The notes under the pieces: model-generated
Database searches by the model: none
What the model was told of the DNA's origin: nothing
Seen by the model: only the letters and a program-made list of their open reading frames with translations
In this document: one piece after another, positions 1 through 2,346 of the stretch
Layout of the letters: each line of letters begins with the position of its first letter
Numbering within the stretch: the first letter of the stretch is position 1
Source: a virus
IMG/VR virus record: IMGVR_UViG_3300022744_000036
Location: 1-53,851 of that record
Length of the DNA stretch: 53,851 nt
Direction: 5' to 3' (one strand)
Translations under genes and position numbers: made by a program

Positions 1-1
1 G

Positions 2-1534
2 CAGAAGAAGGCATACGACGAGATGCTGCGCAAGTTCCGCGCGGACTGCGGCAGCGGCCAGATCACGGCGGTCAACGAGGCGGCCAAGCTCAGCAAGCTC
101 CTGCAGATTTGCTGTTTGCGCCATGATACTAACGTGCTAACGGAACGCGGGTGGGTTCCGATACATGACGTGTCGGCACGCGACGCCGTCTGGGACGGCA
201 CCGAGTGGGTGAGCCAGAAAGGCGCAGCCCTAATGGGGTACAAGCCCACCATTGATTGTGGGGGTGTGTTTGCAACGGAGGACCACCTGGTTCTTAGCGA
301 CTCCGGGTGGCTAACAGCGAAGGAGTTTGCGCGCGGTTATGCCAGCAAAAGACTTGACTGGGCAGAGGTTCGGTTACCTGACGGTGTTGCGTCGGGAGGG
401 GACCTCTGGTGGGGTGAACAAGAAGGCTCGATGGGCGTGCCTGTGCGATTGCGGGAACGAGGTTACGCGCGAAAGCCAGTACCTACGCAGCCGGCACAGA
501 ACCCACCCCCGCAGTTGTGGGTGTCACCACGGAAACGAAAAGCACAAGATGGCGGCATCTCGCCCGTACCGAACGTGGACGGGTATGCGTCGGCGCTGCC
601 TAGACCCGTTGGACAAAGACTGGCCGAATTACGGCGCGCGTGGCGTGACGGTGTGCGAGTCGTGGCGCAGGTCTTTCTCGGCGTTTTGGGCGGATATGGG
701 ACCGAGCTACCAAGACAACCTGACCCTTGGCCGCGTGGACAACGACGGACCCTACTCACCCGACAACTGTCGATGGGAGACCGTGCACCAGCAGGCCAAC
801 AACCGAAGAACGAACACTCTGGTAGCCACATCAAAGGGTTCGATGACGCTGAGCCAGGCAGCGAGGGCTTTCGGCTTGAAGCCGGTCACGCTGCTGGCCA
901 GGATACGTCGCTACGGTTGGACGCTGGAGAGGGCGCTGAACACCCCGCCGTCTACGACCTCGTCGACTGTGGCCCACGAAATCGGTTCGTCGTCAGGGGC
1001 GTAGATGGCAAACCACGTATAGTCCACAATTGCGGCGTGGCCTACGGCGAAGGCGAGGCCGAGATCCTCCTGGATGCCCGCCCCCGCATCGAGCTGGTCA
1101 AGGAGATCATCGAGGAGAGCGAGTCCAAGGTGCTGGTGTTCGTGCCGTTCACGGCAGCACTGCACAAGGTAGCCGAAGAAATCGCCAAGCACTACTCGGT
1201 GGAGGTGGTGTACGGCGAGGTGTCCAAGACTCAGCGGGACCGCATCTTCCACGACTTCCAGCACGCCAAGGACCCCCACGTCCTGGTGGCCGACGCCCGC
1301 ACCATGAGCCACGGACTGAGCCTGACAGCGGCCAGCACGACCATCTGGTACGGCCCCCCTAACGGGAACGAGACCTATCTGCAGGCTAACGAGCGCACAC
1401 CCCGCCCGGGGCAGAAGCTCAATACCCTGATCGTCAACATCGAGGGCACCCCCGTGGAGCGCAAGGTGTACGAACGACTCCGAGGGCAGACCAAATTGCA
1501 GGGGCTGCTGCTCGACATGCTAAAAGGCGGTTGA
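2..1534 (+). CDS. SNF2-family DNA helicase, 3' part, interrupted by an intein
   Basis: This is the C-terminal part of a superfamily 2 (SNF2-like) helicase whose N-terminal ATPase half lies left of the window; the frame is open from base 2. The N-extein ends at LLQIC, and the C-extein begins CGVAYGEG at base 1031. The C-extein carries the RecA2 domain: KVLVFVPFTAALHKVAEEI, then a motif V-like SHGLSLTAASTTIWYGP and a motif VI-like QANERTPRPGQ, the arginine-finger region. SNF2-type helicases in phages usually lie with replication genes, as here with a primase-helicase downstream. Splicing at Cys31 and Cys337 (numbered from the ATG at 23) would restore LLQIC-CGVAY. The stop codon overlaps the -35 of the next promoter. 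The family call is firm; its exact role in replication or recombination is inferred. Confidence 0.85.
   Translation, partial: QKKAYDEMLRKFRADCGSGQITAVNEAAKLSKLLQICCLRHDTNVLTERGWVPIHDVSARDAVWDGTEWVSQKGAALMGYKPTIDCGGVFATEDHLVLSDSGWLTAKEFARGYASKRLDWAEVRLPDGVASGGDLWWGEQEGSMGVPVRLRERGYARKPVPTQPAQNPPPQLWVSPRKRKAQDGGISPVPNVDGYASALPRPVGQRLAELRRAWRDGVRVVAQVFLGVLGGYGTELPRQPDPWPRGQRRTLLTRQLSMGDRAPAGQQPKNEHSGSHIKGFDDAEPGSEGFRLEAGHAAGQDTSLRLDAGEGAEHPAVYDLVDCGPRNRFVVRGVDGKPRIVHNCGVAYGEGEAEILLDARPRIELVKEIIEESESKVLVFVPFTAALHKVAEEIAKHYSVEVVYGEVSKTQRDRIFHDFQHAKDPHVLVADARTMSHGLSLTAASTTIWYGPPNGNETYLQANERTPRPGQKLNTLIVNIEGTPVERKVYERLRGQTKLQGLLLDMLKGG
113..1030 (+). mobile_element. Mini-intein in the helicase, 306 residues, middle part overprinted
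   Basis: This is a protein-splicing element inserted in the RecA2 region of the helicase. Block A is CLRHDTNVLTERGWVPIHDV with nucleophile Cys1. Block B is ATEDHLVLSDSGWLTAKEF with the TxxH motif (TEDH). Block F is VYDLVDCGPRNRFVV, and block G is GKPRIVHN followed by Cys+1 of the extein. All the residues expected for splicing are present. Between roughly residues 105 and 310 of the ORF there is no in-frame LAGLIDADG or HNH domain. The reading frame there is a Pro/Arg/Gly-rich stretch that looks like the +1 shadow of another gene (339-1004, same strand). The intein boundaries are clear; splicing activity is inferred. Confidence 0.88.
339..1004 (+). CDS. Homing endonuclease nested out of frame inside the intein
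   Basis: The 221-residue product resembles freestanding phage homing endonucleases. It has an N-terminal zinc-binding-like part (RFGYLTVLRREG, then CLCDCGN and RSCGC), a central nuclease core (NYGARGVTVCESW, LGRVDNDGPYSPDNCRWET, QQANNRRTN) and a C-terminal helix-turn-helix (LSQAARAFGLKPVTLLARI). ATG 339 follows GAAGGAG at 319-325 with a somewhat long gap; TTG at 327 is an in-frame alternative but too close to that site. The whole gene lies within the intein in a different frame, so both frames stay open for over 200 codons. It presumably cuts an intein-less helicase allele and drives intein spread. The nuclease family call is good; activity and target are inferred. Confidence 0.82.
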   Translation: MPAKDLTGQRFGYLTVLRREGTSGGVNKKARWACLCDCGNEVTRESQYLRSRHRTHPRSCGCHHGNEKHKMAASRPYRTWTGMRRRCLDPLDKDWPNYGARGVTVCESWRRSFSAFWADMGPSYQDNLTLGRVDNDGPYSPDNCRWETVHQQANNRRTNTLVATSKGSMTLSQAARAFGLKPVTLLARIRRYGWTLERALNTPPSTTSSTVAHEIGSSSGA

Positions 1535-1559
1535 TCCGCTAACGTGTTAGGTATATTAT
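1531..1559 (+). promoter_or_regulatory. Sigma70-type promoter with CTAACGTGTTAG dyad in the spacer
   Basis: TTGATC at 1531-1536 and TATTAT at 1554-1559 are 17 bp apart, an ideal spacing for a host sigma70 promoter. The spacer contains the near-perfect dyad CTAACGTGTTAG at 1539-1550, leaving 2 bp to the -35 and 3 bp to the -10. The promoter overlaps the stop codon of the helicase and would drive the genes from 1584 on. The same dyad in the same place recurs upstream of other units, which suggests an operator. Confidence 0.72.
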
Positions 1560-1583
1560 TTAACCCCAACCTGAAAGTGCCCC

Positions 1584-1949
1584 ATGGCTAACGACAACGA
1601 CCGCCTGAACTCTAACGCCACCTTTGAGGAAGCCCGCCGATTTTTTGACGCCCGTATCGAGTCGCCCACCGAGGAAGACCTGGACCGCTGGCTCGGAAGT
1701 CGGCCGCTTCACTACGACATCGAGACCTTCGGTCGACTCTACTTCTGCCGGGCCGACCGCGTCCACAGTATGTACCCCTCCCATAAACCGCCCCCTGCGG
1801 TGTTGGCAGCCTACGCCGACGTGCGCGCTCGGAAGCTCCACGACGCTCTGAATCGTAAGTACGGCGGGGGCTACATCGACGCGGCTTGGGATCGGGGGAC
1901 GGCCACGCGCTACGCGACAGGCGGGCCCAGCGGCCCGTATACCCATTAA
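1584..1949 (+). CDS. Hypothetical early protein, 121 aa
   Basis: I do not recognise this protein. It is soluble-looking and charged, without membrane segments, with an acidic N-terminal half (FEEARRFFDARIESPTEEDLDRWL) and a Gly/Thr-rich tail. It is the first gene after the promoter at 1531-1559, which makes it a candidate for early or dyad-controlled expression. It is followed 13 bases later by the next gene, whose leader has an ACTGGAGAG ribosome-binding site. Codon use matches the neighbours. Coding status is supported by position, start site and lack of a better competing frame. Confidence 0.7.
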   Translation: MANDNDRLNSNATFEEARRFFDARIESPTEEDLDRWLGSRPLHYDIETFGRLYFCRADRVHSMYPSHKPPPAVLAAYADVRARKLHDALNRKYGGGYIDAAWDRGTATRYATGGPSGPYTH

Positions 1950-1962
1950 CTGGAGAGTTACC

Positions 1963-2346
1963 ATGCCCGACATCGACGCGCTCATCGAGCGATACGTCCT
2001 CCTTCGAGACAAGAAGGCCCAGATCAAGGCTGCGTATGAGGCCGAGGTCGCCGAGTACGACGGGGCCATGGACCGTATCGAGGGGGCCATCATGGCGCAC
2101 CTCAACGCCACCGGCACCACCAAGACCGGCTCCAAGGCCGGCACCGCGTTCATCGAGAAGACCACCAGCTGCACCACGGCTGACGCCGAGGCGTTCTTCA
2201 GCTACGTGCAGGCTAACGGCCTGTGGCACCTCATGGACAAGCGCCCTAACAAGACGGCAGTTGCGGAATTCCGCGCGGCCAACGATGATATTCCGCCTGG
2301 CCTGAACTGGCGTGAAGAAGCCGTGGTGCGCATCCGCCGCGCCTGA
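1963..2346 (+). CDS. Coiled-coil early phage protein, 127 aa
   Basis: The N-terminal 50 residues form a charged helix (ERYVLLRDKKAQIKAAYEAE) of the type seen in a widespread phage family encoded next to ssDNA-binding or recombination genes. The C-terminal part is a compact domain with WHLMDKRPNKTAVAEF and a final basic RIRRA. I know of no assigned function; a Gam-like or DNA-associated role is possible but cannot be shown here. The gene has a clear TGGAGAG site before its ATG and is followed after 25 bases by the zinc-containing protein at 2372, probably in one transcript. Confidence 0.75.
   Translation: MPDIDALIERYVLLRDKKAQIKAAYEAEVAEYDGAMDRIEGAIMAHLNATGTTKTGSKAGTAFIEKTTSCTTADAEAFFSYVQANGLWHLMDKRPNKTAVAEFRAANDDIPPGLNWREEAVVRIRRA

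Follow-up and report, generated by a model that had tools for sequence, protein, structure and literature searches.

A predicted phage intein with an overlapping, out-of-frame HNH endonuclease gene, and its relatives in helicase and DNA polymerase genes

Background

Inteins normally hold their nuclease in the same polypeptide as the splicing domain, and Dalgaard is said to have reported an intein with an HNH nuclease in 1997. HNH genes are also common in group I introns. The element described here resembles the in-frame-nuclease inteins (LAGLIDADG or HNH) in having a nuclease between HINT blocks B and F and in occupying conserved motifs of replication genes, but its nuclease is encoded separately, by an out-of-frame gene that has a start and a stop of its own, and the intein protein itself contains none. 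Group I introns of the I-HmuI type with an HNH ORF likewise pair a splicing element with an independently translated nuclease gene, whereas here splicing would occur at the protein level and the nuclease overlaps coding sequence.

Arsenault, Gosselin and Gogarten (2025, PMC11855218) described hidden out-of-frame HNH genes in methylase insertions, which are expressly distinguished from inteins. Like the present element, the ShiLan domain and the Pacc40 gp60 insertion from that work conceal an out-of-frame HNH gene beneath a host frame that remains open. However, those insertions have no splicing domain, whereas the host frame here encodes a HINT intein, through which the host protein would survive; with its splicing domain, the present element falls outside the ShiLan type. 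A weak HINT-N match (E=0.08) raised the possibility that Pacc40 gp60 is a composite intein, but translation of the matching place points to a separate, ordinary in-frame LAGLIDADG intein, and this reading was rejected. By engineering, an intein-regulated meganuclease has been entangled in sequence with a second gene (STALEMATE, PMC12455656), and the present element would be a natural parallel to this.

Several database records already contain parts of this anatomy. In the Hamiltonella phage APSE-1, GenBank lists P46, a nested HNH CDS, inside the polymerase CDS P45, and in the Sodalis phage SO-1, gp39 is annotated inside the polymerase gp38, with the record stating 'type I self-splicing intron' (L016 2501-3397). 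Both pairs are homologous composites, and neither record describes an intein with an overprinted HNH gene. The intron label in SO-1 is probably wrong, because the open frame there terminates in intein blocks. In the Salmonella phage Ent2 record, the same anatomy is annotated as an intein 'encoding splicing domains'; a composite intein accounts for these conflicting annotations. An earlier note on this DNA was aware of no such case. For inteins this stands, in that nothing closer was found in the open-access literature for an out-of-frame, overlapping or nested nuclease, but the nested HNH annotations in APSE-1 and SO-1 and the work of Arsenault and colleagues precede it. The two-genes-in-one intein appears not to have been recognised previously as a class.

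The helicase gene and its intein

The window, which is the whole stretch of viral DNA analysed (IMG/VR record IMGVR_UViG_3300022744_000036; 53,851 nucleotides), opens within a SNF2-type helicase gene that extends beyond the window start. The helicase frame is open over 2-1534, with its stop at 1532-1534, and is interrupted at 113-1030 by a 306-aa intein. All of the coordinates in the earlier note held on re-checking.

2-112, + strand: N-extein, 3' part of the SNF2-type helicase; open frame, with a KL.QI flank as in intein-less homologues
113-1030, + strand: whole intein, 306 aa, from Cys1 to His305-Asn306, then Cys+1
113-382, + strand: HINT N-part, comprising blocks A and B; pLDDT of 89-98 in AlphaFold2
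319-325, + strand: GAAGGAG, possible Shine-Dalgarno sequence for the HNH gene; also encodes HINT residues
339-1004, + strand: nested HNH endonuclease gene, 221 aa, in the +1 frame relative to the intein
383-937, + strand: overprinted linker, intein residues 91-275 (about 185 residues), predicted mostly disordered in the intein frame
938-1030, + strand: HINT C-part, blocks F and G; 938-1004 also encodes the HNH C-terminus
1031-1534, + strand: C-extein, helicase C-terminal domain (PF00271); empty-site homologues resume exactly here

The Cys1 codon lies at 113, block B reads TEDH, block F reads VYDLVDCGPRNRFVV, and a terminal HN precedes Cys+1. In an alignment of 83 relatives, the residues diagnostic of an intein are all in place (C1, T55, H58, H305, N306 and Cys+1), and the catalytic residues are all invariant or almost so; within the HINT N-part, C1, G13, D28, G29, T55 and H58 are invariant. 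The window intein falls below the cut-offs of the curated Pfam/NCBIfam intein models. An AlphaFold2 model built from 83 aligned intein frames gives a pLDDT of about 97 for the HINT halves, and its top Foldseek matches are the solved structures of the DnaX, gp41-1 and DnaB mini-inteins (best E=9e-4), which points to a HINT fold. The complete splicing blocks claimed by the earlier note are therefore borne out both by conservation of blocks A, B, F and G and by the predicted fold, and splicing of the window intein is probably intact. Between the halves, the overprinted linker has a pLDDT of about 48 (mostly 44-57) and a single predicted helix, a mostly disordered prediction that is explained by its DNA encoding the HNH protein in the +1 frame. 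The conserved intein-frame motif RxPDG (window 368-382, intein residues 86-90) is the HNH motif GYLTV read out of frame; RxPDG-like residues survive, fossil-like, in some mini-inteins.

In the closest intein-less helicases, KLVQIA runs directly into CGVAYG and there is no HINT match. The site is uninterrupted in nearly all of 80 helicase homologues fetched, and a HINT match was found in 0/80. Across the clade, the insertion sites sit in conserved helicase and polymerase motifs and fall within a few codons of one another: LLQIS^CG, K^CLQ and LQF^CNG in helicases, and YGGKL^CEN, YGGK^CVEN and EN^CVQA in the polymerases of the +1 group. The motif GK..LG^CGYG is the site of the +2 group and of the +1 members that belong to a second HNH family.

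The nested HNH endonuclease gene

As the earlier note had proposed, a complete HNH gene with its own ATG lies out of frame within the intein. Its ORF runs from ATG 339 to TAG 1004 and matches the HNH endonuclease profile PHROG 374 (E=1.6e-55); unlike the nuclease of an ordinary intein, it sits in the +1 frame and not in the intein polypeptide. The AlphaFold2 model of this frame has a mean pLDDT of 90.8, and a Foldseek comparison with the PDB gave no significant fold match. The conserved residues C36, C38, C60, C62, H69, R132, Y139, N143 and N155 are present. However, the conserved acidic residue of the LDRxD motif is absent from the window protein, which has Gly131 at a position occupied by Asp or Glu in 84/89 nested relatives and 81/82 freestanding homologues. 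In a PDB sequence search, Gly131 aligns with Asp74 of I-HmuI, on a profile match that is itself weak (E=0.65); Asp74 is presumably a metal ligand in that enzyme. The window nuclease may thus be impaired, and its activity is doubtful on the basis of this substitution, but three other nested copies also have Gly at the site, which suggests that it may be tolerated.

The GAAGGAG site proposed by the earlier note is present, but its 13-nt spacing from ATG 339 is unusually long compared with the 7-9 nt typical of relatives. Shine-Dalgarno matches of 5 nt or longer lie close to the start in 51% of nested genes, the corresponding figures being 10% for control windows and 30% for freestanding genes, and nearly all members of the +1 group have a start codon near the HNH N-terminus. 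On the basis of the Shine-Dalgarno enrichment, independent translation of the nested gene is supported for the +1 group. Some +2 members have no evident start codon close to the HNH N-terminus. In Jerseyvirus L012 (+2 HNH, intein bases 155-250), there is no ATG, GTG or TTG in the 30 codons preceding the conserved start motif, and a non-standard start or a -1 frameshift is therefore possible.

Distribution among related inteins

Relatives were gathered with the intein alignment, which was used to scan viral contigs and genomes in GTDB, and duplicates were removed. A further scan was ranked by the HINT halves alone, so that inteins of the same architecture were not favoured. An alignment that combined +1, +2 and mini-intein members contained no stretch conserved enough for scanning. 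The resulting set of 143 distinct complete inteins of this clade includes 98 with the HNH gene in the +1 frame, 31 with it in the +2 frame, and 14 in which none was detected. Relatives with the nuclease in frame, which the earlier note had named as evidence against its reading, were sought with two HNH profiles within this HINT clade, and 0/143 were found. The 98 +1 composites divide into 91 from the HNH family of the window and 7 from the second family, and include two short copies, L109 and L118, with HNH pieces only. One sequence, L079, has an apparently broken intein frame, but it contains N and frame jumps and was left out of the evidence.

Using tblastn with the intein frame, this full-length composite was also located in the DNA polymerases of Caulobacter phages GB2A, RW, RLK and KcrB, of Shewanella phage SFCi1 and of the APSE phages. 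The polymerase inteins of Jerseyvirus and Dhillonvirus have a related HNH gene in the +2 frame, and +1 versions are found in the polymerases of Streptococcus and Gardnerella phages. Both frames are open in independent assemblies as well as in isolated phages. In L095, L101 and L103, one polymerase gene contains two composites, with a +2 member upstream and a full-length +1 member downstream. The arrangement is old and common to a large family of elements, whose host genes encode DNA polymerase A or SNF2 helicases. Because the window copy is one member of this large, old class, the capture outlined by the earlier note did not take place in this phage itself.

Two same-clade +1 composites lie about 500 bases apart in L064 (1115-2002 and 2501-3385), and their sites differ from those usually occupied in helicases and polymerases. 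An adjacent pair of inteins is found in L117 (2501-4130; Aggregatibacter kilianii); the frame of the first is broken, with its HINT halves in different frames, and the second has a nested HNH gene. In Salmonella phage Ent2 (L022 4951-5213), a helicase a few genes downstream is annotated with a LAGLIDADG intein, and both intein designs seem to coexist in that genome.

Selection on two reading frames

The open intein frame that the earlier note described across the nuclease gene recurs throughout the class, with stops in 0/127 nested HNH genes compared with 82/82 freestanding homologues. The latter have no overlapping host frame and contain stops in both alternative frames; each has at least two, and the two relevant frames average 16.6 and 9.3 stops. 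When synonymous HNH codons of the window gene were shuffled, 5.7 intein-frame stops were expected and the frame was open in 0.04% of shuffles, and when intein codons were shuffled, the HNH frame was open in 0/3000 trials. Codon shuffling excludes chance as the source of the overlap.

Substitutions between close pairs change register along the element. In the HINT halves they peak at intein-frame codon position 3 (0.47 and 0.34), in the overlap they peak at HNH-frame position 3 (0.36 vs 0.14 and 0.12), and past the overlap the periodicity returns to the intein frame. The +2 group has an equivalent switch in its own register. This pattern supports two real protein-coding frames, with the intein frame held open by selection, and indicates that the HINT halves are under purifying selection. 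The class also provides a natural, well-powered collection of gene overlaps, in which the two frames are related in two different ways.

Proposed mechanism and alternatives

The element in the window is very probably a composite mobile element, formed from a phage intein and a separate, complete, out-of-frame HNH gene between its HINT halves. The host frame would read through the HNH gene as a mostly disordered loop, the HINT halves would come together and splice all 306 aa out of the helicase, and the HNH protein would be made from its own internal start. By analogy with homing, the nuclease would cut intein-less helicase alleles, and repair would copy the whole element in. Splicing and separate translation are inferred, as is homing, for which the scattered distribution of the element and its family membership are the basis. 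A complete gene could be captured only out of frame, because an in-frame copy would end the host protein early at its own stop. Both the absence of in-frame cases and the need for an open intein frame would follow from this. The arrangement also suggests a route by which an essential gene can take in an entire freestanding gene and still yield an untruncated product. Textbook mobile inteins have the nuclease in the same polypeptide, whereas a large phage clade codes it here as a separate overlapping gene.

That textbook arrangement is the reason to consider whether an ordinary intein, with its nuclease in frame, has suffered a frameshift or a sequencing error. The chance of this is practically negligible, as the nuclease is in frame in 0/143 relatives, independent assemblies and isolated phages alike have both frames open, and the substitution pattern fits two real frames. 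A self-splicing RNA intron with an intron-encoded HNH gene would agree with the SO-1 annotation of a homologous arrangement and with the frequency of HNH genes in group I introns. However, blocks A, B, F and G are conserved and end in HN before Cys+1, the host frame is open, and a HINT fold is predicted, all of which make an intron very improbable. A search of window 1-2000 for a group I or group II catalytic RNA core gave no Rfam match at E<=1, and the RNA intron reading was rejected accordingly.

Other alternatives concern how the composite intein works. The HNH protein might arise as a HINT-N/HNH fusion through programmed ribosomal frameshifting and not from its own start, as some +2 members without ATG, GTG or TTG before the HNH start motif (Jerseyvirus L012) might suggest; the start codons near the HNH N-terminus in nearly all of the +1 group, with their Shine-Dalgarno enrichment, make this unlikely. 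It is less likely still that the intein no longer splices and is simply tolerated where it sits, which is the proposal made for the ShiLan domain. Tolerated HNH insertions of this kind, out of frame and lacking splicing domains, have been described (Arsenault 2025, PMC11855218), but the catalytic intein residues here are invariant or nearly so, the HINT halves are under purifying selection, and the sites lie within conserved helicase and polymerase motifs. A more serious possibility, somewhat short of an even chance and compatible with the class explanation, is that the window copy itself is a decaying, homing-dead element, kept only through the overlap and the constraint on the host frame. 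Gly131 at the conserved acidic site and the long Shine-Dalgarno spacing favour decay, whereas the HNH ORF is complete with a confidently predicted fold, and the recurrence of Gly in three other nested copies may mean that it is tolerated.

Origin and loss of the nested nuclease

Homologues of the nested endonuclease do occur as freestanding genes elsewhere, as the earlier note had anticipated. These phage genes (PHROG 374, including D3 orf78 and BcepMigl gp71) belong to the same family at about 40% identity and represent the lineage from which the nested clade derives. A tree of 209 HNH proteins groups the 90 +1 nucleases of the window's family in a single clade (SH-aLRT 95) that branches inside 82 freestanding phage HNH proteins. 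The second HNH family, which has both +1 and +2 members, sits apart in this tree, where its sample consists of nested genes. This is most simply read as two or more captures, or as a single capture and a frame switch. A tree of the HINT domain has 99 columns, too few for counting captures.

The mini-intein found at the same helicase site, L099, is a deletion derivative that keeps the first ~27 HNH codons, and not an ancestral empty intein of the kind that the earlier note's reading supposes. Pieces of HNH in the +1 frame are present in the mini-inteins L099, L109, L118 and L124, and probably in L115 and L144, which implies that at least some mini-inteins arose via deletions that kept the host frame. 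Shorter inteins in L050, L082, L084, L103 and L127 have HNH genes without the C-terminal ~50 residues, possibly the DNA-binding part. The HNH ORF is visibly broken in 3/127 full-length copies (L101, L108 and L112), and in a few others just the C-terminal part of HNH is missing.

It is tentatively suggested, at slightly less than even confidence, that these are widespread 'entangled' inteins with at least two origins in different frames, in which overprinting ties a selfish nuclease to an essential host gene, so that the nuclease resists the decay of the homing cycle and is lost mainly by frame-keeping deletions. Resistance would follow because frameshifts and many nonsense changes in the overlap would also break the replication protein, and this may account for these nucleases staying intact. 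The low number of broken HNH ORFs and the frame-keeping deletions with relics in several mini-inteins are consistent with such entanglement. The capture and loss of intein nucleases are also made testable in isolated phages, including APSE, Caulobacter, Shewanella, Jerseyvirus and Dhillonvirus. Among the broken copies, L108, from an Arsenophonus endosymbiont, lies in a decaying APSE-like polymerase gene as a composite with a broken HNH frame, and offers a natural view of loss.
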